A stretch of DNA of 64,000 nt from Porphyrobacter sp. ULC335 (GTDB taxonomy: Bacteria > Pseudomonadota > Alphaproteobacteria > Sphingomonadales > Sphingomonadaceae): positions 1,240,001 to 1,304,000 of the forward strand of contig NZ_CP078091.1 in assembly GCF_025917005.1 (NCBI RefSeq), in the 5' to 3' direction. Numbering within the stretch: position 1 is the first letter of the stretch; every line of letters starts with the position of its first letter. A program made the translations under genes and the position numbers. The notes beneath the pieces were generated by a model. The model did no database searches. It was not told where the DNA came from and saw only the letters and a program-made list of their open reading frames with translations. Shown piece by piece: positions 2,207 to 39,119 of the stretch.

Positions 2207-3130
2207 TCAATTCGTGGGGGAAGGTGCCGGAAATGCGCTGTTCGCCGCCGCCATTGTTAACATCGAGGCCGCATGGCGCGCGGCAACAAGGCGCGGATCG
2301 TCGCCATAACCGCCCCCCAAGGCGCTGGCGACCGGCAGCCCAAGCCGACGGGATTCTCCGATGACGAAGCGATCGCGCAGTGCCAGTCCTTCGTCCGTCA
2401 GCGCCAGCCGCCCGAGCTTGTCGTCGACATGCGGATCGACCCCTGCCTGATACAGCACGAAATCCGGCGCGAAGTCGGCCATGACCTGCGGCAGGTGGCG
2501 GGTGAGCGTCTCCATATAGCCATCATCATCCAGCCCATCGGGCAGGGCGATGTCGAGGCTGGAGCGCGCTTTCCTGACCGGGAAGTTCTTTTCGGCGTGG
2601 AGCGACAGAGTGAAGATGTCCTCACGCCCCGCGGTGAGGCTGGCGGTGCCATCGCCCTGATGCACGTCGCAGTCGACGATCAGCACGCGGGCGGCATGGC
2701 GCTCGGCGATCAGGCGGTTTGCGGTGACGGCAAGGTCGTTGAACACGCAATAGCCTGCGCCGGTGTCGTGCAGCGCATGGTGGCTCCCGGCGGCGGAGTT
2801 GGCGGCATAGCCATGCGCGCGGGCCAGCTGTGCGGCGAGCCACGTGCCGCCATTGGTGTGCCGCACGCGGGAGGTGATCGCGGGCGTCACCGGAAAGCCG
2901 ATGCGCCGTTCCTTGGCGCGGGGGACTTCGGCGCGGAACACCTCGTCGACGTAATCGGGGCAATGCACCGCTTCGAGCCATTCGCGCGGCATCGGTTCGG
3001 GCGCGTGTTCGGTGATGGGCGCGCCGCTTTCGCGCAGTTGCTCCATCACGAGGTAGTATTTGTCGAAGCGGAAGGTGCCGCGTTCGGGGCGCGGGGCCAT
3101 ATAGTCGGCGTGGTGGACGACGTGGAGCAC
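2207..3130 (-). CDS. Histone deacetylase family protein
   Basis: Zinc amidohydrolase of the acetoin-utilisation/HDAC-like superfamily (307 aa), which in bacteria deacetylates acetylated lysines, polyamines or related small amides. The family signatures are present: paired His in GSHHALHD, the metal site in [10 protein letters not shown], the second metal Asp in [10 protein letters not shown], and the Tyr-bearing GGGYGDD loop near the C-terminus. It is the last gene of a minus-strand run ispG, thioredoxin-like, mntP, deacetylase. Only seven bases separate it from mntP. The substrate is not inferable. Confidence 0.88.
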
Positions 3131-3137
3131 GGCCCGC

Positions 3138-3683
3138 TCAGAGCCAGCCCGAATGCTCGGCGAGGATCTTGCAGCCCAGCCCGATCAGGATCACGCCCCC
3201 GACGCGCTCGGCCCATTGGCCCCAGCGATCACCCGCTATGCGGCCCAGCCACACGCCCGCCCCGCTCATGGCGAACGTCACGATCCCGATCAGCGCGGCA
3301 GCTACGGGGGGTGCGATGCTGAGCGTGGGCAAGGTGATCCCGGCGGCGAGCGCGTCGATGCTGGTCGCCACACCCGCCAGCAGCAGCGCGCGGCCGGTCA
3401 GCGCATGGGCGGCTTCATCCTCGCCGACATGCCCGCCAAGCATCCTGACGCCGAGGAAGGTCAGCAATCCGAAGGCGATCCAGTGGTCGAATGCCTCGAC
3501 ATAGATCAGCGCCACGGCACCGATCACCCAGCCTGCGAGCGGCATCAGCGCCTGGAACACCCCGAAGGTGAGCGCGATAGCGAACCCGCCGCGTGCCGAG
3601 GGACGAAATTTCGCGCCCTGCGTCAGCGCGACCGCAAAGGCGTCCATCGCCAGGGCGAGGGCGAGCAGCAGGGCGGCGATCAT
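3138..3683 (-). CDS. mntP: Manganese efflux pump MntP
   Basis: Six-helix inner-membrane exporter of Mn2+ (181 aa, the usual family length). Two pseudo-repeats each carry a helix with an acidic residue: [10 protein letters not shown] at the N-terminus and SIDALAAG in the second half, both typical of MntP. Its start ATG overlaps the stop of the thioredoxin-like gene (ATGA), showing translational coupling. In many bacteria mntP sits under an Mn riboswitch or MntR. Here it is buried in an operon and no such leader is visible. Confidence 0.85.
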
Positions 3684-4183
3684 GCCGCAGGGCGGTCGGA
3701 CAGCGCGAGGAGCTCGGCGAAGATCGCATCCTCGCTGCGGCTGGCTGCATTGCGCCAGCTAGCGGCGGTGTCGAGGTTTACGGGTTTACCCTCGGCAGTG
3801 AGCACGACCAGCGCGGGCGTTCCCGTCATCTCCGCAAGGCCGAAGCGCCGCGCCACATCGAGGTTATGCCCGTCGCCGGACTGCGGCAGGCCGACATTGA
3901 CGAAGACCAGTTCGTAACGCTCGGCCAGCAGCGCAGTGAAGCGCGGGGTTTCGAGCCATCCGGCGAGCGCGGTGCTGTCGTGGCACCAGTTCGCGCCGAA
4001 CACCACCAGCACGCGCTTGCCACTGGCGGCGGCGCGGGTGAGTGCGGCATCGACATCGCCCATCGCATTGGCGCTGACGGCATAGGACTTGGCATCGGGC
4101 CGCGCCGGGGCTGCCACTTCGGGCGTCGTCGCGCAGGCGGTGAGCGCCAGCGCCAGACTTGCGGCAATGGCGGCGCGGATCAC
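3680..4183 (-). CDS. Thioredoxin-fold lipoprotein
   Basis: 167-aa exported protein. The N-terminus is a short hydrophobic signal with a lipobox-like LTACA, so it is probably a lipoprotein anchored in the envelope. The core [10 protein letters not shown] resembles the thioredoxin active-site region, but the second Cys of CxxC is replaced (C-H-D-S). It is therefore more likely a thiol-binding or reductase-like protein than a classical oxidoreductase. It begins with GTG overlapping the ispG stop (GTGA) and ends overlapping mntP (ATGA). The function is unknown beyond the fold. Confidence 0.7.
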
Positions 4184-7929: not shown

Positions 7930-9021
7930 ATGAAGAAACTCATCGCGCTGCTCGCTCTCGCCCTCTTGTCCCAACCTGCCTCCGCTCAAGACGCGCCCAA
8001 ATGGTCGCTGGCGATCCACGGCGGGGCAGGGACGCTCGATCCCAAGGCGATGACGCCCGAAAAGCGCGCGGCTTACGAGGCGGATTTGCAGCGGGCGCTG
8101 GATGCCGGATCAAAGATCCTCGCCGAGGGCGGCGCCGCGATGGACGCGATCAAGGCCGCGATCATCATCATGGAGGATTCGCCGCTGTTCAACGCCGGCA
8201 AGGGCGCGGTGTTCACATGGGACGGGACGAACGAGCTTGATGCCTCGATCATGGACGGACGTGACCGCTCGGCCGGGGCGATTGCCGGGGTCAAGACGGT
8301 GAAGAACCCGATCCTGCTGGCCGATACCGTGCGCACGCAGAGCGAACACGTGATGCTGATGGGCGCTGGCGCGGAAGCTTTTGCGGTGGAGAAGGGCTTT
8401 GCGGTCACCCCGCCCGAATATTTCGCCACCCCCGCGCGGCGAGAGGCGCTGGAGCGGCTGAAGGCGGAGAAGCTTTCGGCGCTGGATGTCGACCACAAGT
8501 TCGGCACGGTCGGCGCGGTGGCGCTCGACCAACAGGGGAACCTCGCTGCGGGCACCTCGACCGGCGGGATGACCGGCAAGCGGTGGGGCCGTGTTGGCGA
8601 TGCGCCGGTGATCGGTGCGGGGACCTATGCGGATAACCGCGCCTGTGCTGTGTCGGCAACGGGGTGGGGGGAGTATTTCATCCGCGTCGGGGTGGCGCAT
8701 GAGATTTGTGCGCGGCTGCGGGTTCAGCGCGAGCTGCTGCCCCGGCAGATGGGCATCGGGGATCCTCATCGTTCACCGACGCCGATGAGCCACTATTACC
8801 AAGTGCTCGCCAGATCGGATCAAGGTGCTGCCGATGCAGTGATGGCCGACGTTGCCTCGCTCGGCGGTGACGGCGGGGTAATCCTCGTCACGCCCGAGGG
8901 CGAGGCGATCTTCAGCTTCAACACCACCGGCATGTATCGCGGCCGCGCGACCAGTGCAGGCGTCAACGAAGTGGCGATCTTCGGCGGCGAGGAGAAGGCG
9001 TCGGCGACGCCGGATCATTGA
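7930..9021 (+). CDS. iaaA: Isoaspartyl peptidase/L-asparaginase (type 2, Ntn hydrolase)
   Basis: Exported N-terminal-nucleophile hydrolase (363 aa) that removes isoaspartyl dipeptides and hydrolyses asparagine. A Sec signal peptide (MKKLIALLALALLSQPASA) precedes the mature part. The alpha subunit contains HGGAGTLDP. Autocleavage is expected before Thr193 in HKFGTVGAV, which becomes the catalytic nucleophile, and the beta subunit has GTSTGGMTGKRWGRVGD. Full length and intact motifs suggest an active enzyme. A palindromic repeat follows the stop and separates it from the convergent beta-lactamase. Confidence 0.92.
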   Translation: MKKLIALLALALLSQPASAQDAPKWSLAIHGGAGTLDPKAMTPEKRAAYEADLQRALDAGSKILAEGGAAMDAIKAAIIIMEDSPLFNAGKGAVFTWDGTNELDASIMDGRDRSAGAIAGVKTVKNPILLADTVRTQSEHVMLMGAGAEAFAVEKGFAVTPPEYFATPARREALERLKAEKLSALDVDHKFGTVGAVALDQQGNLAAGTSTGGMTGKRWGRVGDAPVIGAGTYADNRACAVSATGWGEYFIRVGVAHEICARLRVQRELLPRQMGIGDPHRSPTPMSHYYQVLARSDQGAADAVMADVASLGGDGGVILVTPEGEAIFSFNTTGMYRGRATSAGVNEVAIFGGEEKASATPDH

Positions 9022-9029
9022 GCCAACCT

Positions 9030-9094
9030 CCGTTCGCCTCGAGCGTAGTCGAGAGGCCCGTCAAAGGTGTCTCGACTTCGCTCGACACGAACGG
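9030..9094. repeat. REP-like palindromic repeat between convergent genes
   Basis: A large imperfect inverted repeat. The left arm begins CCGTTCG and contains CTCGAGCG.AGTCGAGAG. The right arm contains TCTCGACT.CGCTCGA and ends CGAACGG. Each arm is itself palindromic, giving a REP-doublet organisation. Such elements are dispersed in Sphingomonadales intergenic spaces (family knowledge). Here it lies between the stops of iaaA and the beta-lactamase gene and could act as a bidirectional terminator or mRNA stabiliser. Confidence 0.75.
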
Positions 9095-9103
9095 GGTCTG
9101 GTA

Positions 9104-10036
9104 TCAGTAAATCTTCCCCACCAGCGGCAAACCGCGCTCCGGCTCGGCGAATTCCTTGATGATCCGGCCCACGCGTGACAGCGCAAGTTCGGCGCGGGCC
9201 TGCATGTCCTCGACCGGGCCGCGCGCGCGGAAGTAGCAGGCGAAGGTGATCGGCGGCTGGCCCTTCGGCCCTTCGGCGAAACCGATGTCGATGTAGTTGT
9301 ATTCGGTGCCGATCAGCCCGCTGCTGCCGGTCTTGTCGCCCGCCACCCAGCCTTCGGGCAGACCCGCGCGCACGCGGCGAAGGCCGGTCTCGGTCTCGAC
9401 CATCCAGCTTTTCAATTCTGCTCGCTCGGCCTCGGGCAGCACGTCGCCGTAGACGATCTTTGCCACGGTGCGCGCCATTGCGGCGGGCGTGGTGGTGTCG
9501 CGGAATTCGGCGGGCGGAACGTTGTTCATTTCCGGCTCGTAACGGTCCACCCGGCTGACATCGTCGCCAATCGAACGCCAGAACGCGGTGATCCCCGCCG
9601 GGCCGCCCAGATTGCGCAGCAGGATATTGGCCGCCGGATTGTCCGAAGTGGTCTGCGTTGCCCGCGCCAATTCGCGCAAGGTCGCGCCCGCCGCGATCCG
9701 TTCACGCGTGAAGGGCGCCCATTCCAGCATGTCCGCCTCGGTCCACGTGACCCGCTTGTCGGCGTCGATCATGCCAGCCGCATGGCGTTGCAGCAGCAGC
9801 GCGGCGAGCGAGAACTTGAACGAGGAGGCGTGCCCGAAGCGCCGGTCGCTGTTCAGCCCCACCGATGCGCCGGTGGCGGTGTTGTAAAGCTCGACGCCGA
9901 GTGTCCCGTTGCCCGCCGCCTCGATGATCCGCAGTTCCGCCGCCAGTCTGCCGGCCGGGCTTTGATCGGGCGGGATGCACGCGCTCGCCCCCAGTGCCAG
10001 CGAGCCGCCGATGAAGAACCGCCGATCGATCATCAT
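9104..10036 (-). CDS. bla: Class A beta-lactamase
   Basis: Serine beta-lactamase of 310 aa. All four signatures are intact: SSFK (Ser71-x-x-Lys74), SDN (131-133), the omega-loop Glu167 in EPEMN, and KTG (235-237). The N-terminus MMIDRRFFIGG followed by LGASAC looks like a twin-arginine signal with a lipobox Cys20, suggesting a membrane-anchored periplasmic enzyme. The start is placed at the ATG overlapping the RDD gene stop (ATGA); the frame stays open upstream but only as a shadow of that gene. It is coupled to an apparently core operon and shows no mobile element nearby, so it is probably intrinsic. The spectrum cannot be predicted. Confidence 0.92.
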   Translation of the reverse strand: MMIDRRFFIGGSLALGASACIPPDQSPAGRLAAELRIIEAAGNGTLGVELYNTATGASVGLNSDRRFGHASSFKFSLAALLLQRHAAGMIDADKRVTWTEADMLEWAPFTRERIAAGATLRELARATQTTSDNPAANILLRNLGGPAGITAFWRSIGDDVSRVDRYEPEMNNVPPAEFRDTTTPAAMARTVAKIVYGDVLPEAERAELKSWMVETETGLRRVRAGLPEGWVAGDKTGSSGLIGTEYNYIDIGFAEGPKGQPPITFACYFRARGPVEDMQARAELALSRVGRIIKEFAEPERGLPLVGKIY

Positions 10037-29900: not shown

Positions 29901-30524
29901 TCACCCCCGCGAGCTGACCCCGTTGCCCGCCGCCACCGTATCAAGCTCTTCCAGAATCGCGCGGTGGGCGATGGCGTCATCGGTGGAGCGGCGCGGGATG
30001 CTGCCATTGGCGAGCATCTCGGTCAGCGCGGCGCGGGCGCGGCCCACGCGGCTCTTGATCGTGCCGACCGCGCAGCCGCAGATCGCGGCGGCTTCCTCGT
30101 AGGAAAAGCCCCCTGCACCCACCAGCAGCAGCGCTTCGCGCCGTTCGGCAGGCAGGGTGAGCAGCGCGCGGTGCAGATCGGATAGGTGGATCGGTTCTTC
30201 CTGTCCGGCGGGTGCGGTCAGGATGCGCTCGGCCACGCCCTCGTCATACTCGCCGCGAAAGCGGTTGCGGCGCATGTCGGTGAGGTAGGCGTTGCGCAAG
30301 ATCACGAAGGTCCAGGCGCGCATCGAGGTGCCCGGTTCGAACCGGTCCTGCGCCGCCCACGCCTTCAGCAGCGTTTCCTGTACCAGATCATCGGCCAGAT
30401 CGGGCCGCCCGCACAGGCCGCGCGCGAAGGCGCGCAGGTGCGGGACGACCTGGGTCAGATCACGTTTGAAGTCGGATTTTTCCGATGGGGTCCGGGTGCC
30501 GCCGATCGACGGGTCGCCGCTCAT
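29901..30524 (-). CDS. ecfG: EcfG-type RNA polymerase sigma factor
   Basis: Alternative sigma factor of the alphaproteobacterial general stress response (207 aa). Region 2 shows DLADDLVQETLLKAWAAQD and MRAWTFVILRNAYLTDMRR. Region 4 shows LPAERREALLLVGAGGFSYEEAA with VGTIKSRVGRAR. Its start overlaps the nepR stop (ATGA), so sigma and anti-sigma are translationally coupled. In unstressed cells NepR is expected to hold it. A GGAAC-N16-CGTT promoter upstream of nepR indicates autoregulation. Confidence 0.93.
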   Translation of the reverse strand: MSGDPSIGGTRTPSEKSDFKRDLTQVVPHLRAFARGLCGRPDLADDLVQETLLKAWAAQDRFEPGTSMRAWTFVILRNAYLTDMRRNRFRGEYDEGVAERILTAPAGQEEPIHLSDLHRALLTLPAERREALLLVGAGGFSYEEAAAICGCAVGTIKSRVGRARAALTEMLANGSIPRRSTDDAIAHRAILEELDTVAAGNGVSSRG

Positions 30525-30739
30525 TGGCTGGTGTCCCGGCTATTCTGCGATCCGCCCCCGCCGCGGGCGGGAGGGGTCGCGTCGAGCCGGTCGAGCAAGT
30601 CCTTGAAGCTGTCTGGCAGGGCTTCCTCGACCACCGAATCATAGAGCTGCTTCAGCCCGTCGGCCCATTCGGGCGGGCGTTGCAGGGCGCCATCCTTGCC
30701 CCCGCTGCCATTGCCACCCTGTCTGTGATTCGAGGCCAT
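30521..30739 (-). CDS. nepR: Anti-sigma factor NepR
   Basis: 72-aa anti-sigma factor. The conserved core LKQLYDSVVEEALPDSF..LLDRLD (residues about 29-53) is the two-helix NepR signature that clamps EcfG, or phosphorylated PhyR on stress. The glycine-rich N- and C-terminal tails are disordered, as in the family. It lies directly upstream of, and overlaps, ecfG. Its promoter lies within the start region of the divergent kinase gene. Confidence 0.93.
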   Translation of the reverse strand: MASNHRQGGNGSGGKDGALQRPPEWADGLKQLYDSVVEEALPDSFKDLLDRLDATPPARGGGGSQNSRDTSQ

Positions 30740-30862
30740 GATGTTAGGTTTCGTCCCTGATCCCGTGTCCCGGCCCCGCGATGGAGCCGATTTCGCCGCT
30801 GCAAGGGCCGAACCATCACGCTCCGGTCGATACCCTTGAGAGCCGAGTTTGGACGATTCGGG

Positions 30863-30887
30863 AACGATGCGCTACCAGTTTGGTTCC
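30863..30887 (-). promoter_or_regulatory. EcfG-type promoter for nepR-ecfG
   Basis: On the minus strand GGAAC (30887-30883) is followed after exactly 16 bases by CGTT (30866-30863), a perfect match to the known EcfG consensus GGAAC-N16/17-CGTT. Transcription would start near 30856, giving nepR a leader of about 115 bases. The element overlaps the proposed ATG (30867) of the divergent histidine kinase. Confidence 0.75.
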
Positions 30888-32684
30888 GCCACCGGCCCCA
30901 GCGTTCCGCTTTGCGCCGATGCCCGCACAGGATTGCGCATTATCGACCCGCTCGCATTCAACCCCGATGACGATGCGGCCGCGCTGCCGCCGCCGACCTC
31001 CTCGGGGCGGGCGCGGCGCTGGCTGGTGCTGTATCCGCGCGCGATCCCGCTGGTGATTTTCCTCGCGCTGGCCGCGATCACCGCGCTCAGCGTCTTCGCC
31101 ATCGAGAGTAATGCCCGCGCCCGCGAACGCGCGGTGATGCGCGAATATGCGCAAGGCGTGTCCGCCGCGCTCGACCGCAGCGGCAGCGGCTTCACCTCAT
31201 ACCTGCGCGCAGGCGCGGCGCTGTTCGCCAGTGTCGAGGAAGTGAGCCCCGACACCTTCGACAGCTTCGTGCGCGCGCTGAAGCTCAATACCGAATATTC
31301 GGGCGCCGAGGGGATCGGCTGGATTCCGGTGATCGAGGCGCGCGATCTGCCCGCCTTCCTTGCCCGCACCCGCGCCAGCCAGCCGGCCTATCCCGACATC
31401 TATCCCAGCCCGTCCAGCACCACCGGCCGGATCGCGCCCGTCGCCATGTTCGCGCCTGCCACTGCGACCAACCGCCGCGCGCTGGGCTATGACATGTATT
31501 CCGACGCCGCCCGCGCCGCCGCCATGGCCGAGGCGGAACTGACGCTTCGCCCCGCCGCATCGGGCCGGATCGTGCTGGTGCAGGAAACCAGCGGCACTGC
31601 GCCCGCCTTTGCCATTTACATGCCGGTGTTCCGGCTGGCCGGGGCGGGTGAGGCATCCGGCGACCGGCGGCTGGCAGGCTTTGTCTACACGCCGTTCCGC
31701 GCGCGCGAATTCCTCGATTCCGCGATCGACCGGCAGGGGCAGGGCCGGTTTGGCGTGCGGCTTTACGATGGCGAGGTTTCGACCGGGCACCTGCTGGTTT
31801 CCCACACCATCGCGGATTCCGCCAAGGAAACGGTCGAGCAGGAAGTCACCATCGCCGACCGCAAGCTGATGCTGGTGATCGAAAGTGCCAATGTGCAGGT
31901 GCTCTCCCCGCTGTCGATGGTGACGCTGATCTTCGGCCTCGCGCTGGCGAGCCTGCTGATGCTGCTGGCGCGGTTGCTGACGCAGCAGGCGTTCGAGGAT
32001 CAGGCGCGGCTCGCCTTCTTTGAAGAACAGCATTCGATCCGCAACTCGCTGACGCGGGAACTCAACCACCGGGTCAAGAACACGCTGGCCAACGTGCTGT
32101 CGATCCTGTCGCTGACCCGCCGCCGGGCGAGCGGGCTGGATGACTTCGCCGACAGTCTGGAAGGCCGGATCCGGGCGCTATCGGCGACGCATGATCTGCT
32201 CACTGTGACGGACTGGGGCACAACCCCGATCCGCGCGGTGATCGAGGCGGAGTTGCAGCACTTCCGCGTGGCGCTGGGGGATGCGATCCTGCTTGACGGG
32301 CCGGAGCTGGAACTGGCGCCCAATGATGCGCTGTCCTTCGGTCTTGCGATCCACGAACTTGCCACCAACGCCGCCAAGTATGGCGCGTTGAGCGTGGCAG
32401 GCGGGACCATCACGATCCGCTGGCAGCGCGGCGAGGACCCGGCGGCCGAGACCGAATGGGCGGAAGTCGAATGGCAGGAGACCGGTGGGCCGCCCGTCCC
32501 CACCCAGCGCCGCCGCGGGTTCGGGACCGAGCTGATCGAGAAGGTCGTCGCCCACGAATTGCGCCAGCCGGTGACGCTCGACTTCGCCCCGACCGGCGTG
32601 CGCTGCGTGCTGCGTGTGCCGGTGCGGCGTCCCGCAGACTTCCGCATCCGCGAGAAAGACGCGGATCGGCGGGGGAAAGTCTAG
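30867..32684 (+). CDS. CHASE-domain HWE sensor histidine kinase
   Basis: 605-aa membrane sensor kinase. TM1 spans about residues 58-79, an extracytoplasmic CHASE-like domain about 95-335 (NTEYSGAEGIGWIPVIE, RRALGYDMYSD) and TM2 about 350-371. The kinase core follows, with phosphoacceptor His401 in ELNHRVKNTL, an N-box HELATNAAKYG (496-506) and W536-x-E538 in VEWQETGGP, the HWE-family hallmarks. Located between nepR-ecfG and phyR, it is the probable PhyR kinase or phosphatase of the general stress response. An upstream TTG (30849) is an alternative start. Confidence 0.88.
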   Translation: MRYQFGSATGPSVPLCADARTGLRIIDPLAFNPDDDAAALPPPTSSGRARRWLVLYPRAIPLVIFLALAAITALSVFAIESNARARERAVMREYAQGVSAALDRSGSGFTSYLRAGAALFASVEEVSPDTFDSFVRALKLNTEYSGAEGIGWIPVIEARDLPAFLARTRASQPAYPDIYPSPSSTTGRIAPVAMFAPATATNRRALGYDMYSDAARAAAMAEAELTLRPAASGRIVLVQETSGTAPAFAIYMPVFRLAGAGEASGDRRLAGFVYTPFRAREFLDSAIDRQGQGRFGVRLYDGEVSTGHLLVSHTIADSAKETVEQEVTIADRKLMLVIESANVQVLSPLSMVTLIFGLALASLLMLLARLLTQQAFEDQARLAFFEEQHSIRNSLTRELNHRVKNTLANVLSILSLTRRRASGLDDFADSLEGRIRALSATHDLLTVTDWGTTPIRAVIEAELQHFRVALGDAILLDGPELELAPNDALSFGLAIHELATNAAKYGALSVAGGTITIRWQRGEDPAAETEWAEVEWQETGGPPVPTQRRRGFGTELIEKVVAHELRQPVTLDFAPTGVRCVLRVPVRRPADFRIREKDADRRGKV

Positions 32685-32712
32685 GTCTGCATCGCGCGTC
32701 GGCGCGATCGCA

Positions 32713-33501
32713 TCACAAAGGCCGTGTCGACCCGAAAAACAGCGCCTGGCTGATCGCCGCGCGCACGGTCGCTTCCTGGAACGGCTTGGTGACCAGATAG
32801 GTCGGCTCGGGCCGGTCGCCGGTCAGCAGACGCTCGGGATAGGCCGTGATGAAGATCACCGGCATCGCGCCAACGCTCAGGATGTCGTCGACTGCGTCGA
32901 GCCCCGATGATCCGTCGGCGAGCTGGATATCGGCCAGCACCAGCCCCGGCATCGCTTCTGCAACGGCAGCGCGCGCCTGCGTGCGCGTGGCTGCGGTGCC
33001 GCTGACCGTGTGACCGAGGCCCGTGACGAGGTCTTCGAGCTGCATGGCGATCAGCGGCTCATCCTCGATGATCAGCACGCTGGTGGTCTGCCCGCGCTCG
33101 ATATCGGCGATGGCCTCGGCGACGAGCGCTTCGATCTCCGCAGGCGTGCGGTCGAGAATTGCTGCGGCTTCCGAGGTGGTGAAATCTTCCAGCGTGGTGA
33201 GCAGCAGCGCCTGCCGCGCCGGGGGTGTGATTGCACCCAGGCGGGCCTGCGCGCCGGCCTCATGCTCGCTGGCGGCGGTGCCGGCTGCGGCGCTGCCCGA
33301 GGCGCTCGCCCAAACCTTGCCGAAGGCGCGGTAAAGCGGCACGCGCCCGCCTGCGAGGCTGGCCTTGAGGTCCTCGTCAGCCAACACCGCTTCCAGCATC
33401 TCTCGCACAAAGGCGTCCCCGCTCGCCTGCGATCCGGTCAAAGCGCGGGCATAGCGGCGCAGAAACGGCAGGTTGGCGGCGATCTGGTTTCCGAGAGACA
33501 T
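32713..33501 (-). CDS. phyR: Anti-anti-sigma response regulator PhyR
   Basis: 262-aa master switch of the general stress response. Residues 1-130 form a sigma-factor-like domain (LPFLRRYARALTGSQ, ITPPARQALLLTTLEDFTTSEAA) that mimics EcfG and binds NepR. Residues 141-262 form a receiver with acidic EDEP (146-149), phosphoacceptor Asp191 (LADIQLADG), FITAYPE with Thr, and TKPF with Lys. Phosphorylation releases EcfG. The start MSLGNQIAANL is chosen because AAAGGTG lies upstream; a longer frame has no support. Confidence 0.94.
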   Translation of the reverse strand: MSLGNQIAANLPFLRRYARALTGSQASGDAFVREMLEAVLADEDLKASLAGGRVPLYRAFGKVWASASGSAAAGTAASEHEAGAQARLGAITPPARQALLLTTLEDFTTSEAAAILDRTPAEIEALVAEAIADIERGQTTSVLIIEDEPLIAMQLEDLVTGLGHTVSGTAATRTQARAAVAEAMPGLVLADIQLADGSSGLDAVDDILSVGAMPVIFITAYPERLLTGDRPEPTYLVTKPFQEATVRAAISQALFFGSTRPL

Positions 33502-33547
33502 GAGGCACCTTTCGCAGGGTCGAGGCGATGACACGATTTGCCAACCC

Positions 33548-33573
33548 AACCGATTCGAGGCCATAGCGGTTCC
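33548..33573 (-). promoter_or_regulatory. EcfG-like promoter for phyR
   Basis: On the minus strand GGAAC (33573-33569) is followed after 17 bases by GGTT (33551-33548), one mismatch from the EcfG consensus CGTT. It is positioned about 47 bases before the phyR start codon, a plausible leader. PhyR genes are commonly under EcfG control, so this fits family knowledge. Confidence 0.5.
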
Positions 33574-33693
33574 CCACCGCGTCGTCGCGGTTATCCCGCA
33601 ACCCTCTGGTTTTTGGCAGTATTGCCCAGGTTTCCGTTACGTCGAAAAAAATTTCGGCGATGCCGGGAACTGGTCTTCGGGACGATCATTATG

Positions 33694-33787
33694 CAATTGT
33701 CACCGCCGAGACCCCCCTCCCGTCCAAGCGGCTGGTGATACGATCCCGAAAGGCCTCTGCTCGTTCGCGAGTAGAGGCCTTTTTTGT
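33694..33787 (+). ncRNA. Candidate GsrN-like small RNA with C-rich loop
   Basis: The 333-base gap between phyR and the next gene holds a compact RNA-like unit. A 5' hairpin pairs CACCGCCG (33701-33708) with CGGC-T-GGTG (33729-33737) and exposes a 20-base loop containing CCCCCCTCCC. It ends in a long perfect terminator: stem 33749-33763 with 33768-33782 (one G-T pair), UUCG loop, then six T. Upstream GGAAC (33666-33670) with CATT 16 bases later resembles an EcfG promoter with one mismatch. Position by phyR, a C-rich loop and stress-type promoter all recall Caulobacter GsrN. No protein of useful size is encoded. Start is estimated. Confidence 0.65.
33749..33786 (+). terminator. Strong rho-independent terminator of the small RNA
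   Basis: AAAGGCCTCT (33749-33758) pairs perfectly with AGAGGCCTTT (33773-33782); inside, CTCG and CGAG close a UUCG loop, and a run of T (33780-33785) follows. No gene on the + strand precedes it, which is what points to a small RNA upstream. Confidence 0.88.
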
Positions 33788-33834
33788 TGGCGGCCATCTG
33801 TGGTGGCGCACACAGTTCTGCGCCAGCGCGATCC

Positions 33835-35010
33835 CTAACCCAACTTCCGCTCGTAGATCACGTACTCGCGGTTGACCTTGCTCTTGATCGTATCGGCAAT
33901 CGCCAGCATGCCCTGATTGTCTTCCAGCACCCAGCCAAGCTCGCCGCGGGTGGATTCGAACTTGCCGATCGCTTCCAGCCGGATCGCCTCGATCATCATG
34001 AAGGCCAGCTGCCCGGCGAGCCGGGTGTTGTGCAGTTCTTTCAGCACGCCCATCAACGGCACCCGCATCCCTGCTCCGCGCGGGCGACGCAGCCAGCGCA
34101 GCATGTGAATCCAGCCGAACGGGAACAGCTTGCCCCTGATCTTCGCCAGCGCATCATTCACATCGGGGAAGGTCAGCATGAAGGCCACAGGCCGACCATC
34201 AAACTCGACGATCACGTTCAGTTCTTCGTGGATGATCGCGCGCAGTTTCTTGCCCGCATAGGCGACCTCGGCGGGGGTGAAGGGGACAAAGCCCCAATTG
34301 TCCGACCAGGCATCATTGAGGATCGCCAGAATGATCGCGACCTCTTCGTCCCAGCGATCCTTCCGGACCCGGCGCAGATTGATCCGTGCGTTGCGCTTGC
34401 CCGTCTGGACAAGCCGGTCGACCAGCGGGCCAAATCCGTGCGTGATGTCCAGATCATAGGTGTAGAGCGTCTTGGCGCGGGCATATCCTGCCGCCTCGAT
34501 CCACGCAGCGTAATGCGCGGGGTGGTGGCCCATCAGCACCATCGGGGCATGATCCTGCCCCTGCACCAGCAGGCCGGGTTCTTCCCAGATCGACAGCGAA
34601 ATCGGGCCGAGCACGCGCTTCATGCCCTCTCTCGCCAGCCATGCCTCGGCCGTGGCCAGCAAAGCGCGGGCGATGTCCTCGTCCTCGGCATCGAAATAGC
34701 CGAAGAAACCGGTGCCGGGGCCAAAGCCCTGTTCCGCCGGCATGGCGAGCGCGAGTTCGTCAATATGTGCCGAGATGCGCCCCACTGGCTTGCCAGCGCG
34801 GTGCGCGATGAACAATTGCACCCGCGCGTGGCCGAAAAAGGGGTTCTTGCCCGGATCGACCAGTTCCAGCTGTTCGGAACGGATTTGCGGGACGAAGTGG
34901 GGCAGACGGTCGGAGAACGCCCGCCCAAGATCGACGAAGTCTGCTCGCCCGCGCTTGTCGCTGACCGGCTCGATCCTTATCTCTGCAGCATTGGCCGTCA
35001 CATCCGTCAC
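33835..35010 (-). CDS. GNAT-like acyltransferase of unknown substrate
   Basis: About 391-aa protein seen commonly in sphingomonads and usually labelled N-acetyltransferase. Recognisable segments are FFGYFDAEDEDIARALLATA, the conserved GPISLSIWEEPGLL and a C-terminal GNAT-like half with LNVIVEFDGRPVAFML and QLAFMMIEAIRLEAIG. The GTG at 35010 has GAGGACG eight bases upstream and is preferred; the frame is open to 35073 (TTG). It could act on an amino acid or lipid head group; nothing in the context decides. Confidence 0.68.
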   Translation of the reverse strand: MTDVTANAAEIRIEPVSDKRGRADFVDLGRAFSDRLPHFVPQIRSEQLELVDPGKNPFFGHARVQLFIAHRAGKPVGRISAHIDELALAMPAEQGFGPGTGFFGYFDAEDEDIARALLATAEAWLAREGMKRVLGPISLSIWEEPGLLVQGQDHAPMVLMGHHPAHYAAWIEAAGYARAKTLYTYDLDITHGFGPLVDRLVQTGKRNARINLRRVRKDRWDEEVAIILAILNDAWSDNWGFVPFTPAEVAYAGKKLRAIIHEELNVIVEFDGRPVAFMLTFPDVNDALAKIRGKLFPFGWIHMLRWLRRPRGAGMRVPLMGVLKELHNTRLAGQLAFMMIEAIRLEAIGKFESTRGELGWVLEDNQGMLAIADTIKSKVNREYVIYERKLG

Positions 35011-35155
35011 GCACCCGTCCTCGTATTTGCGATCAATCAAGGTGTCTGTGTCGCGCCTGCGCCAATCACGCAAGGCTGTCGATCACTGTCACCAACAACC
35101 CGCGTTTGGCTCGGTCCCCGTTTTCGGGTAGGGCGAGCCTCAGGAAATTGCCGAA

Positions 35156-36256
35156 ATGAACATGCAACAGACCATCGATCCCAAGCGCGCCGAAGCGACC
35201 GCGCCGCCTGCCAAGGCCACCCGCGTCCAGTTCATGGCCGAGGATGACAAGGCGATGCTGCGCGCCGCGCGCGACCTGACCAAGGGTCTGGGCGAGGCGA
35301 AGCCGGGGATCTACTGGCCGGACATGCTGCTGTCCGCAGGCATCGGCTATGCGGGAATCGCGGTGGCGATCCTGTCGCAGAGCCTTGCGGTGCAGATCGC
35401 CGCAGGGCTGGTCGCCGCGCTGGCGATGTACCGCGCGCTGATGTTCATTCACGAGCTGACCCACATCCACCGCGATGCCCTGCCGGGTTTTCGCACGGCG
35501 TGGAACCTGCTCGTCGGCATTCCGCTGCTGACGCCGAGCTTCATGTATGAAGGCGTCCACACCATCCACCACAAGCGCACGCAATATGGCACGGTGGAGG
35601 ACCCCGAATATCTGCCGCTCGCGCTGATGAAGCCGTGGAGCCTGCCGCTGTTCGTGGTGGTGGCAATGCTGTTGCCGGTGGCGCTGCTGGTGCGGTTTGG
35701 CGTGCTCTACCCGCTCGGTCTGATTGTCCCGCCGCTGCGCAAGTTCACGTGGGAGCGCTTCTCGTCGCTGTCGATCAATCCCGAGTTCCGCCGCAAGGCG
35801 CCCGAGGGTGATTTCGTGGGCCGTGTGCGCTGGCAGGAAGCGGGCGCGAGCCTGTGGGCGATCGCGCTGATCGCCAGTGCCTTCCTGATCGGCTGGCAGC
35901 CGCTCGCCATCGCGATGGGCGTGCTGTCGCTGACCGCGGTGCTTAACCAGCTGCGCACGCTGGTCGCGCACCTGTGGGAGAACGAGGGCGAGGCGATGAC
36001 CGTGACCGCGCAGTTCCTCGACTCTGTCAACGTGCCCCCGCCCGGGCTGGCGGCTGAAATCTGGGCGCCGGTGGGCCTGCGTTATCACGCGCTGCACCAC
36101 CTGATGCCGTCGATGCCCTATCACGACCTGCCCGAAGCGCACCGCCGTCTCGCGCGTGAGCTGGGCACGGGTTCGACCTATGAAGGCGCGAACCATCCCG
36201 GGATGCTGGTGCTGGTGGGCCGGATCGCCAAGAGCACGATGGGCAAGCGGGCCTAA
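35156..36256 (+). CDS. Fatty acid desaturase family protein
   Basis: Membrane di-iron desaturase (366 aa). Three His boxes are present: HELTH (I), HTIHHKR (II) and YHALHHLMP (III), with several hydrophobic spans between. It probably introduces double bonds into acyl chains or acts on a carotenoid-like substrate. AGGAAAT precedes the ATG. The 145-base gap to the divergent acyltransferase gene must hold both promoters. Confidence 0.88.
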   Translation: MNMQQTIDPKRAEATAPPAKATRVQFMAEDDKAMLRAARDLTKGLGEAKPGIYWPDMLLSAGIGYAGIAVAILSQSLAVQIAAGLVAALAMYRALMFIHELTHIHRDALPGFRTAWNLLVGIPLLTPSFMYEGVHTIHHKRTQYGTVEDPEYLPLALMKPWSLPLFVVVAMLLPVALLVRFGVLYPLGLIVPPLRKFTWERFSSLSINPEFRRKAPEGDFVGRVRWQEAGASLWAIALIASAFLIGWQPLAIAMGVLSLTAVLNQLRTLVAHLWENEGEAMTVTAQFLDSVNVPPPGLAAEIWAPVGLRYHALHHLMPSMPYHDLPEAHRRLARELGTGSTYEGANHPGMLVLVGRIAKSTMGKRA

Positions 36257-36263
36257 GCCCTCA

Positions 36264-36773
36264 TCAATCCAGAAAGCAGATCATTGCACAGCGCCGGTCG
36301 GCAGGCAGGCCATCGTCGACCTCGTTCGCCAGCTCCCCCGCCAGCCGAAGGTGCGCGTCGAGCGCGGTGACTTCCTCGAACCCGAGGCGGGTGTAGAACG
36401 GGCCGTTCCACGCGAGATCGCGGAAGGTGGTCAGCGTCAGCGCCTTGAAGCCGGTGTTGCGCGCGTCGATCTGGGCCGCCCGCACCAGCCCCGCACCGAT
36501 CCCGCGCCGCTGGAAGGCGGGGGCGACGTCCATCTCCCAGATATGGAGTTCCCGCCGGAAGGGCTCGGCCACGAGGAAACCCGCCATCGCCTCGCCGACA
36601 TGGACGACAAGGCTGTGACCCTTGCGGATCAGGCGGGCATAATCGGCTTCGGAGCGGGTGTGATCGGGGTCGATGGCCGGTTCCCCCGCAAAGGCGACAG
36701 CCGCCGCCCGCTCAATCCCCGGCATCGCCTCGGCATCCGTCGGCCGCGCGAGCCTGAGCGACCAGCCGCTCAT
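36264..36773 (-). CDS. GNAT family N-acetyltransferase
   Basis: 169-aa acetyltransferase. The acetyl-CoA binding loop is seen in MDVAPAFQRRGIGAGLVRAA (QRRGIG), and the fold ends with a FYTRLGFEEV helix-strand. Its start overlaps the lptG stop by four bases, so it is the last gene of the lptF-lptG operon. The substrate is unknown; operon context does not imply a role in LPS export. Confidence 0.84.
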   Translation of the reverse strand: MSGWSLRLARPTDAEAMPGIERAAAVAFAGEPAIDPDHTRSEADYARLIRKGHSLVVHVGEAMAGFLVAEPFRRELHIWEMDVAPAFQRRGIGAGLVRAAQIDARNTGFKALTLTTFRDLAWNGPFYTRLGFEEVTALDAHLRLAGELANEVDDGLPADRRCAMICFLD

Positions 36774-37879
36774 TCCTCGGTCCGGATCAGGACAGTCTCA
36801 CCCAGCAGCAGGAACAGGAAGAATGGCGCCCATGCGGCGAGCAGCGGCGGATATCCGCCGAAGCTGCCCATCGCCAGTGCGGCATTGTCGACCACGAAAT
36901 AGGCAAAGCCGAGCGCCATGCCGATGATCGCCCGCACGAATAGCTGCCCCGACCGCGCCAGCCCGAAGGCGGCGATCGAGCCGAGCAGCGGCATCAGCAG
37001 CGCGGACAGCGGCCCGGACAAGCGGTGCCACCACTTGGCGCGCATCTCGTCGGTGTTGCGCCCCGCCGCCTCATAGGCGTCGATGCTGTGCGACAATTCC
37101 CAGAAGCTTTGCGCATCGGCATCCACCGATTGCAGCATGATCCGTTCGGGCGAGAGGCTCTGCCCCACCACCAGCGCTGCCGGGCGTTCGGTGATGGCGC
37201 CTGCCACATCGAACTTCACCGGCTTTTCCAGCCGCCAGCCGGGCGCGGCGAAGGTCGCGCGGGAGGCGCGGACCTGTTCCCGGATGATCCCGCCCGGCGC
37301 ACGCGCATACCAGGTCACGCCGGTCAGCACGGTGGCATTGCCCGAGCCCGTCAGCGTCGCAGCGGTGAGGATGTTGTCGCCGTCGGTCAGATAGATGTTC
37401 GACCGCGGCGTACCCGCGCCGCCGGTCGCTGCGGGGATCGGGCCGTAATCCGCCGCTTGCCATGCCTTGATCGTGGCATTGGCGCGGGTCACGATCCGCT
37501 CGTTGAAGCCAAAGCTCACCAGCGAGACCACCGCCGCCGTCAACAGCAGCGGGGAGAGCACCTGATGCGCGCTGAGGCCCGCCGCCTTCATCGCCACGAC
37601 CTCGCTGTTCTGGTTCAACGTCACCAGTGTGATCAGCGTCGCCAGTAGCACCGAATAAGGCAGGAAGCGCGACAGGAGCTGCGGCACCCTGAGGCTGGCA
37701 TATTGCAGGATCTCGGCCTGACCATTGCCCGGTGCGGCAAGGATCTCTCCGGTCTCGGCGAGAAGATCGAGCGCCAGCAGCACCAGGACCAGCATGATGA
37801 GCACCGCGAAGATGCGCACCACAAACAGCTTCGCCAGATACAGCGTCAAGGTGCGCGAGGGGAAGAAATCGAGCTGCAT
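36770..37879 (-). CDS. lptG: LPS export ABC transporter permease LptG
   Basis: Inner-membrane permease of the Lpt bridge that extracts LPS from the inner membrane (369 aa). Three N-terminal helices (first LAKLFVVRIFAVLIMLVLVLLALDLL), a periplasmic beta-jellyroll and three C-terminal helices follow the family plan. The segment TLYLAKLFVVRIF marks it as LptG rather than LptF. It is seven bases downstream of lptF. Confidence 0.9.
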   Translation of the reverse strand: MQLDFFPSRTLTLYLAKLFVVRIFAVLIMLVLVLLALDLLAETGEILAAPGNGQAEILQYASLRVPQLLSRFLPYSVLLATLITLVTLNQNSEVVAMKAAGLSAHQVLSPLLLTAAVVSLVSFGFNERIVTRANATIKAWQAADYGPIPAATGGAGTPRSNIYLTDGDNILTAATLTGSGNATVLTGVTWYARAPGGIIREQVRASRATFAAPGWRLEKPVKFDVAGAITERPAALVVGQSLSPERIMLQSVDADAQSFWELSHSIDAYEAAGRNTDEMRAKWWHRLSGPLSALLMPLLGSIAAFGLARSGQLFVRAIIGMALGFAYFVVDNAALAMGSFGGYPPLLAAWAPFFLFLLLGETVLIRTEE

Positions 37880-37886
37880 CGCCAGT

Positions 37887-39119
37887 CTACTCCGCCGCAG
37901 CGGCTTCTACCGGCTGATAGGCCCGCGGTGCGCGGCGCTTGAACAGTTTGCCAATCCGCTTGCCCAGCTTGGCGAAGGCCATTTCCAGCGCGCCGATCGC
38001 CTGTCCGCCGGGGACATAGGCCACGCGGTAATACATCCACACGATCAGCCCCGCGAACAGCACGAAGGGCACCCAGAAGGCGAGGATCGGATCGAGCCGC
38101 CCCAGCGAGGCCACGTCCTCACCATACTGGTTCACCTTGTGATAGGCGACCACCATCACGATCGACACGAACACGCCCAGCGCGCTGGTTGACCGTTTGG
38201 GCGGGATCGCCAGCGCCACCGCGAGCAGCGGCATCAGGAACATCATCACGATCTCGACTAGGCGGAAATTGAAGCTCGCCACGCTCGCCTCGCGCTGGTC
38301 GGGCGCGCTGTCGCCGCTCCAGCCGATCCTGAGCAGCTCCGGCAGGATGTACTCGCGCGTGGCATCGCCGCGCGCGCGGAATTTCTCGATGGCGGGCAGA
38401 TCGATCGGCAGATCGTGGCGGCTGAAACTGAGCACACGCGGGGTGGCGTTCCCCGTGTCCTGAATGATCGTGCCTTCGGTCAGGCGCAGGATGATCGTAT
38501 CGGGATTGTCGCGCGTGGCGAGGAATGCACCTTCCCGCGCCGAAATCGAGAGCACCTGCCCCTTGCTGTTGGCGACACGGGCAAAGATGCCGATCAACCG
38601 GCGGCCATCATCCTCGCTCTCTTCGATCCGCAGTGCCATGCGGTCGGCCAGCGTGGTGAATTCGCCGACCTTGATCGACGCGCCAAGCGCGCCCGAGCGC
38701 AGCTCGTATTCCATCTGCTCGTAATAATAGCGGCTGATCGGCTGGATGTAGAACACCAGCGCGATATTGACCGCCACCAGCGCCGCCGTGATGATATAAG
38801 GCATGCGCAGCAGGCGGTTATAGGACAGGCCGACAGCGCGCATCGTATCCAGTTCGGATGACGTCGCGAGCTTCCTGAAGGCCAGCAACACGCCCAGCAG
38901 CAGGCCGAGGGGGATCGCCAGGCTCGCATATTCCGGGATCAGCGCGCCCAGCATCTTGAACACCACGCCAACCGGCCCGCCTTCGACCGCGACGAAATCG
39001 AAGAGGCGCAGCATCTTGTCGAGCATCAGCAGGCTCGCCGCCAGCGCGAACACGCCCAGCATCGGCACCACGGTCAGCCGCAGGATATAGCGATCGATGC
39101 TGGGGATCAGGTTGGACAA
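37887..39119 (-). CDS. lptF: LPS export ABC transporter permease LptF
   Basis: Partner permease of LptG (410 aa). The start SNLIPSIDRYILRLT and the coupling-helix region ASSELDTMRAVGLSYNRLL, which contacts LptB, are typical of LptF. Six transmembrane helices flank the periplasmic jellyroll. The C-terminus is basic and extended. First gene of the operon lptF-lptG-GNAT. Confidence 0.9.
   Translation of the reverse strand: MSNLIPSIDRYILRLTVVPMLGVFALAASLLMLDKMLRLFDFVAVEGGPVGVVFKMLGALIPEYASLAIPLGLLLGVLLAFRKLATSSELDTMRAVGLSYNRLLRMPYIITAALVAVNIALVFYIQPISRYYYEQMEYELRSGALGASIKVGEFTTLADRMALRIEESEDDGRRLIGIFARVANSKGQVLSISAREGAFLATRDNPDTIILRLTEGTIIQDTGNATPRVLSFSRHDLPIDLPAIEKFRARGDATREYILPELLRIGWSGDSAPDQREASVASFNFRLVEIVMMFLMPLLAVALAIPPKRSTSALGVFVSIVMVVAYHKVNQYGEDVASLGRLDPILAFWVPFVLFAGLIVWMYYRVAYVPGGQAIGALEMAFAKLGKRIGKLFKRRAPRAYQPVEAAAAE

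Follow-up and report, generated by a model that had tools for sequence, protein, structure and literature searches.

A predicted small RNA with a conserved C-rich loop beside phyR in the general stress locus of Porphyrobacter sp. ULC335 and its relatives

The general stress response (GSR) is the main stress programme of Alphaproteobacteria, and the question raised by the corresponding locus of Porphyrobacter sp. ULC335 is what is encoded by an apparently gene-free stretch next to phyR. The locus lies within the window (the whole stretch of DNA that was analysed, 64,000 nucleotides in length), and an earlier note on this DNA had read the gene-free stretch as a stress small RNA (sRNA) resembling GsrN of Caulobacter, which is the characterised general-stress sRNA found in the open-licence literature. 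The assignment to the general stress locus was confirmed by family models for PhyR, NepR, an ECF-type sigma factor and a CHASE-HWE histidine kinase (Table 1). The same note had labelled the gene on the far side of the stretch an acyltransferase, for which no support was obtained (no matches in Pfam, NCBIfam or PDB sequences). EcfG-type motifs such as the one ahead of phyR (GGAAC-N17-GGTT) occur five times in the window against 1.71 expected; overlapping EcfG-type motifs on both strands were seen at 30861-30887, between nepR and the kinase gene.

Table 1. Features of the sRNA gene and its neighbours, in window positions
Feature	Position	Strand	Basis or remark
ECF-type sigma factor, EcfG by context	29901-30524	-	family models
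nepR	30521-30739	-	PF18557
CHASE-HWE histidine kinase	30849-32684	+	family models
phyR, divergent from sRNA gene	32713-33501	-	PF22029, PF22233; NF006623
EcfG-type motif ahead of phyR, GGAAC-N17-GGTT	33548-33573	-	motif scan
-35 element GGAAC of EcfG-type promoter	33666-33670	+	in register in 179/179 distinct loci
-10 element CATT	33687-33690	+	exactly 16 bases after GGAAC; CATT in 169/179 distinct loci
Predicted sRNA, about 90 nt	33696-33786	+	ends inferred from promoter and T run; model R1 match 33695-33785 (G000:C1:1273695-1273785)
5' hairpin presenting the C-rich loop	33698-33740	+	fold; double changes in 3/11 pairs
Near-invariant C-rich loop AGACCCCCCTCCCGTCCAAG, proposed target-pairing region	33709-33728	+	conservation; C-run length 5-8
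Conserved single-stranded linker	33741-33747	+	fold and alignment
Intrinsic terminator: covarying stem, UUCG loop, six T	33748-33785	+	fold; double changes in 9/11 pairs
412-aa ORF without family match, convergent with sRNA gene	33835-35073	-	Pfam, NCBIfam, PDB sequence searches

The GGAAC element followed 16 bases later by CATT, with which the earlier reading began, is present on the plus strand as described. Taken in isolation this pattern is weak: it was matched twice in the window against 0.35 expected, and two matches were reached in 6 of 100 shuffles. The C-rich 10-mer CCCCCCTCCC (33712-33721) has its sole occurrence in the window here and turned up in 20 of 100 shuffles. A simple promoter and terminator scan of positions 30000-38000 returned no terminators anywhere and no promoter at the sRNA locus (the terminator stem continues into the T run). 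Evidence beyond chance comes from conservation and not from pattern counts in a single sequence.

Regarding conservation, 203 loci were collected (87 by model, 110 by an exact 24-base loop pattern and 6 more) and reduced to 179 distinct ones; L242-L244, which the core pattern did not fit, were dropped. The promoter is part of neither the model nor the loop pattern, and only 30 loci of the genus were first found by way of a stretch that included it. GGAAC stands in register in every distinct locus, the spacer measures 16 bases in 176 of the 179, and the -10 element, where it is not CATT, is CGTT in five loci and another sequence in five. The mean major-base frequency was 0.54 in the promoter spacer, close to the 0.47 of the 40 bases upstream (173 of the 179 loci fitting the counting pattern, which presupposes GGAAC and C[AG]TT and leaves only the spacer and upstream values meaningful). 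A near-consensus EcfG site is thus found upstream of the sRNA; two of the putative promoters listed for EcfG-dependent genes of Sphingomonas melonis Fr1 likewise end in CATT, in the section of that study cited here (PMC6599016). In loci of the window's kind of RNA, referred to below as type A, the -35 element is preceded at a distance of about 15 bases by an AT-rich block (about 33643-33655 in the window), possibly an UP element.

Folding of 33693-33787 gave an energy of -43.6 kcal/mol, unequalled in 200 shuffles (z -6.5), and returned the predicted hairpin with its C-rich loop, followed by a terminator in which 33748-33763 pairs with 33768-33783 around UUCG and six T occupy 33780-33785. The terminator had been described as long and perfect with a UUCG loop; terminator and loop stand, while 'perfect' is slightly generous for a stem containing G-U pairs. 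The accompanying remark that no upstream gene needs this terminator is accurate, the nearest upstream plus-strand gene being that of the histidine kinase, which ends at 32684 with phyR convergent between. The linker separating the two hairpins might be a cleavage site or a second pairing region.

In an alignment of 30 loci the loop and the promoter elements are almost fixed and the sequence around them drifts, and RNAalifold applied to the structure-unfitted alignment A1 (30 loci) yielded two helices with double changes in 8 of 22 pairs. In the model-aligned set of 87 RNAs, an alignment fitted to the structure, 98.3% of 1889 cells pair and 12 of 22 pairs have changed on both sides; none of 500 shuffles was as high on any measure, and slid structures reached at most 53.9% paired. 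These 87 were taken from 94 strong loci, with L008, L013, L017, L043, L051, L054 and L075 left out. Covariation resides mostly in the terminator (nine pairs, against three in the 5' hairpin). Conservation of both hairpins in relatives, which had been proposed as a check, was also evident in single folds, all 87 of which gave the two hairpins with the C core open, that is, with an exposed C-rich 5' loop. The C-run comprises 5, 6, 7 and 8 bases in 6, 141, 31 and 1 of the 179 loci, respectively, and because of this variation there is no conserved reading frame.

The placement beside phyR holds well beyond the window. A divergent phyR adjoins the sRNA in 170 of the 179 loci and lies elsewhere in none; it was unmatched in nine, six of which have less than 400 nt of sequence. 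The fixed partner of the sRNA is phyR with its own EcfG-type motif.

A blastn search of 61 genomes recovered the sRNA stretch from 33 of the 37 that belong to the genus and from none of the 24 that belong to other families. A wider search covered 298 genomes, an even draw from a larger group, of the family, which we take to be Sphingomonadaceae in the GTDB sense. Model R1 matched 137 of them at E 0.01, 118 at E of 2e-10 or lower (57-112 bits) and the rest at 39 bits or lower, and phyR was found in 256 of the 298 at 1e-60. A phyR match of at least 314 bits, a cut set after the data had been seen (the next phyR below scores 312 bits, in a genome lacking the sRNA), occurs in 121 of the 298 genomes; all 118 genomes with a strong sRNA match are among them, and the other 177 contain no strong match. 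Regarding the three remaining genomes above the cut, the copies in G328 and G321 are cut by a contig end, and G346 carries a divergent copy (L085/L102) beside phyR with GGAAC-N16-CGTT and two C-runs in the loop, which could be an intermediate form. The G346 copy is flanked by phyR on one side and by a second EcfG-type motif on the other.

Four genomes of the genus (G007, G014, G033 and G281) have neither a phyR match nor the sRNA. A fifth genome of the genus, G030 (L101), keeps phyR and the 412-aa ORF and has no sRNA copy above 26 bits in the gap or elsewhere in the genome; the sRNA is dispensable there because phyR is kept without any copy of it. The 110 stretches with the exact loop core belong to Erythrobacter, Porphyrobacter, Qipengyuania, Aurantiacibacter, Altererythrobacter, Croceicoccus, Novosphingobium, Citromicrobium and their kin, or to unassigned bins, and Erythrobacter litoralis by name is absent among these stretches, for which an exact 24-base match was required. 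Among 289 genomes of the class, model R2 matched three family members strongly and, under stricter filters, gave only five matches outside the family (27-33 bits), which were taken as noise. Strong matches do not extend beyond a single phyR clade within the family, that of Erythrobacter, Novosphingobium and kin. Among the weak R1 matches, L082 (which is a second site in G069), L084, L086 and L087 were rejected, as by eye they resemble terminators behind genes, and so were opposite-strand R1 matches over type A loci (three of them read), which are explained by the near-palindromic terminator.

The earlier note had called the RNA the sphingomonad counterpart of GsrN, which proved too broad, since at least two RNA families exist: type A in one phyR clade and a second family, type B, in other genera. 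Type B is a C-loop RNA with an EcfG-type motif near phyR, found in 10 of 20 phyR loci from members of the family that lack a strong type A match (L334, L335, L337, L338, L340-L344 and L346, at 8846-9119 on the plus strand or 2972-3943 on the minus strand). Its 5' hairpin, GGATAGCGACC...GCTATCC, encloses a run of six to ten C, and its 3' part is a GC-rich hairpin with a second C-run in the loop; double changes affect 13 of 22 pairs. In nine of the loci phyR is 2.1-2.2 kb away, and in the tenth 2.9 kb. GGAAC-N16-NGTT is present in all ten, where it is not independent evidence as such a motif was required by the search. In eight of the ten loci the RNA follows, after 40-90 nt, the end of an ORF of about 480-555 aa on the same strand, and the three such ORFs that were tested are HWE/HisKA_2 kinases. 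Several of the copies among L334-L346 are preceded by A/T runs similar to the block seen upstream of type A.

No Rfam match was obtained for type B, and its own model, R3, found no further copies in the remaining 10 of the 20 loci. Model R2 gave nothing above 18.9 bits on the type B loci, and R3 gave only two matches (20.5 and 18.2 bits) on 38 type A sources, both on the type A RNA itself, which is a weak hint that the two types may share a layout. The types are alike in the EcfG-type motif, the general stress locus and the C-run in the 5' hairpin, and differ in sequence, in the second C-run and in the distance to phyR. Together they raise the question of whether a C-loop RNA is needed across the whole class. 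The tentative idea that such an RNA is a permanent component of the PhyR-NepR-EcfG switch, replaced again and again, is given less than even odds.

The locus is best read, with a probability of roughly 0.85, as encoding a small RNA that belongs to the general stress regulon, is transcribed by EcfG and acts in trans by loop pairing with mRNAs. This reading is carried by the conservation of the promoter architecture, by covariation in both hairpins, by a loop that is nearly invariant, and by the linkage to and co-occurrence with phyR; transcription, EcfG dependence, pairing, the part of Hfq, the direction of regulation and the targets are what we infer. PhyR would free EcfG from NepR, and EcfG would then transcribe the sRNA gene from GGAAC-N16-CATT. 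The transcript is predicted to fold into the 5' hairpin and the terminator hairpin, and the exposed CCCCCCUCCCGUCC loop could pair with G-rich segments in its target mRNAs (GGGAGG-type ribosome-binding sites, most likely) and would alter the translation or stability of these mRNAs, probably with Hfq. The sRNA thus probably controls target messages under stress through its C-rich loop.

The genome itself shows no enrichment of sites complementary to the loop core, with 31 found (one of them the sRNA gene) against 49 for the reversed pattern. Inspection by eye of 29 such places left two in front of a plausible start, those of a DcaP-like porin and a 141-aa ORF, and several others near ORF starts were judged less likely. 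It was also observed that two near-identical ORF starts (MRLCLPARMGGGGK...; L278 and L303, G000:C1:204017 and 3523211) bear the loop-complementary GGATGGGAGGGG in what is repeated genome sequence. The DcaP-like porin (PF19577; L290/L304, G000:C1:1613352-1614803) has a ribosome-binding site complementary to the sRNA loop. Regarding its orthologues, which are mutually related, GGGAGG lies in the Shine-Dalgarno region of 14 of the 21 from genomes with the sRNA (13 by script, L331 by eye) and of two of the seven from genomes without it (G033 among those keeping it), against a background of 1/53, 3/65 and 11/486 in heuristic genes (2-5%). The porin of the own genome, chosen for its complementarity, reads GGGAGC and was counted as a miss. 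The porin is thus a lead suggested by sequence complementarity and not a target, and it cannot explain the conservation of the sRNA because a search at E 1e-60 recovered it from no more than 21 of the 71 genomes that carry the sRNA.

Another reading is that the RNA is GsrN itself, an orthologue diverged past sequence recognition that keeps the same targets including katG. This appears rather unlikely, even though the sigma-factor class, the similar length, the six-C 5' loop, the intrinsic terminator and the position in the general stress locus agree with GsrN as described in the cited sections of its study, and the linker, at about nt 46-52, lies near the GsrN cleavage site by C53, in position only (PMC5869019). 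BLASTn hits of GsrN end at the Caulobacteraceae according to the same sections (PMC5869019), and R2 matches outside the family stay at 27-33 bits in the 289 class genomes. GsrN pairs with a G-tract in the katG leader, is cut endonucleolytically to a stable 5' isoform and is stabilised by Hfq. The katG gene was found in 19 of 20 genomes, and 13 of 20 leaders were usable, a wrong frame or start having been picked in seven. G-runs stand at differing places in six of the 13 usable leaders: GGGG at -26 to -42 in four (L254, L263, L264 and L273) and G-runs further off in L255 and L261, where in the latter the site at -132 is a strong one (-26.8 kcal/mol, z -2.7). A G-run is missing from the other seven, the window's own genome included. 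The katG gene of this genome lies at G000:C1:1224006-1226129, about 47 kb from the sRNA gene and just outside the window. Within one family, moreover, types A and B barely recognise each other, which argues that C-loop RNAs may arise repeatedly.

It is improbable that the C-rich loop serves to bind or titrate a protein instead of pairing with mRNAs. The loop is almost invariant across genera and its complementary sites are without enrichment, as might suit such a role, but no protein is indicated by any result here, and C-loop pairing is the demonstrated mode of action of GsrN in the cited part of its study (PMC5869019). Still less probable is that the locus is only a bidirectional terminator serving the minus-strand 412-aa gene, with the upstream hairpin incidental. 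The hairpin does lie about 50 nt past the stop codon of that gene, and folding of the minus strand likewise gives a stable structure (z -3.3); the T run, however, is on the plus strand, the minus strand having just CCTTT after the stem, and conservation extends over the 5' hairpin and promoter, which a terminator does not need. The 412-aa ORF is convergent downstream in 146 of 151 loci, at distances of between 1 and 2395 nt (the median being 547), a spread that also speaks against this explanation. A short stress peptide is hardly credible, for the plus-strand ORFs that span the region meet a C-run whose length shifts by single bases and substitutions that track base pairing.

Taken as a small RNA of the general stress regulon, the gene is one for which no description was found in the open-licence literature or in Rfam, and it is almost unchanged across the Erythrobacter–Novosphingobium group. 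Present in each of the 121 genomes that have the matching phyR, in three of them as a cut or divergent copy, this near-invariant, phyR-linked sRNA fills, in the relatives of E. litoralis, the gap that this species exemplified in the GsrN study, and it provides a ready deletion target in Erythrobacter and Novosphingobium.

Regarding known RNAs, Rfam at gathering score identified three tRNAs in the window and nothing at the sRNA site; at E up to 10, six sub-threshold matches fell in 33500-33840. The best of these was the Caulobacter sRNA CC1840 (RF01521), which matched over its full length with the same two-hairpin layout (21.6 bits, E 0.78). Identity with CC1840 was rejected at 21.6 bits against a gathering score of 50, and the match was treated as chance, CC1840 having been found in one of 14 control genomes (Caulobacter vibrioides) and in none of 190 class genomes. 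The CcsR or cuckoo RNAs of Rhodobacter have CCUCC-rich loops and are induced by stress, and they are RpoH-controlled tandem copies. By this general description alone, the window sRNA is comparable to them in its C-rich loop and presumed stress induction and differs from them in RpoH control and tandem arrangement.

Further parallels are offered by the GsrN study, in the sections cited here (PMC5869019). GsrN-like RNAs were sought there by a near-consensus EcfG site, proximity to phyR or ecfG and evidence of intergenic transcription, of which the first two also hold for the window sRNA; those predicted in Rhizobiaceae, Rhodopseudomonas and Bradyrhizobium were named by EcfG site and position in the GSR locus, some with expression data, and the Rhizobiaceae members have a C-rich 5' loop according to the text (G-rich according to the legend), resembling the window sRNA by description (PMC5869019). 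The BLASTn hits of GsrN were restricted to Caulobacteraceae, and no gsrN-like gene was apparent in Erythrobacter litoralis in these sections (PMC5869019). As for the match with GsrN that the earlier note had claimed, an sRNA gene with an EcfG-type promoter, a C-rich loop of the target-pairing kind, a site in the stress locus and a GsrN-like layout is borne out, whereas identity with GsrN is not established by sequence: R2 matches outside the family stay at 27-33 bits in the 289 class genomes, and a katG G-run is present in six of 13 usable leaders and lacking in that of the window's own genome. The view that the RNA would work like GsrN is partly supported, by analogy of layout, homology being a separate claim. 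GsrN of Caulobacter crescentus has a sigma-T (EcfG-type) promoter, a length of about 100 nt, a 5' loop with six tandem C and an intrinsic terminator, and its homologues usually lie near GSR genes, as does the window sRNA (PMC5869019).
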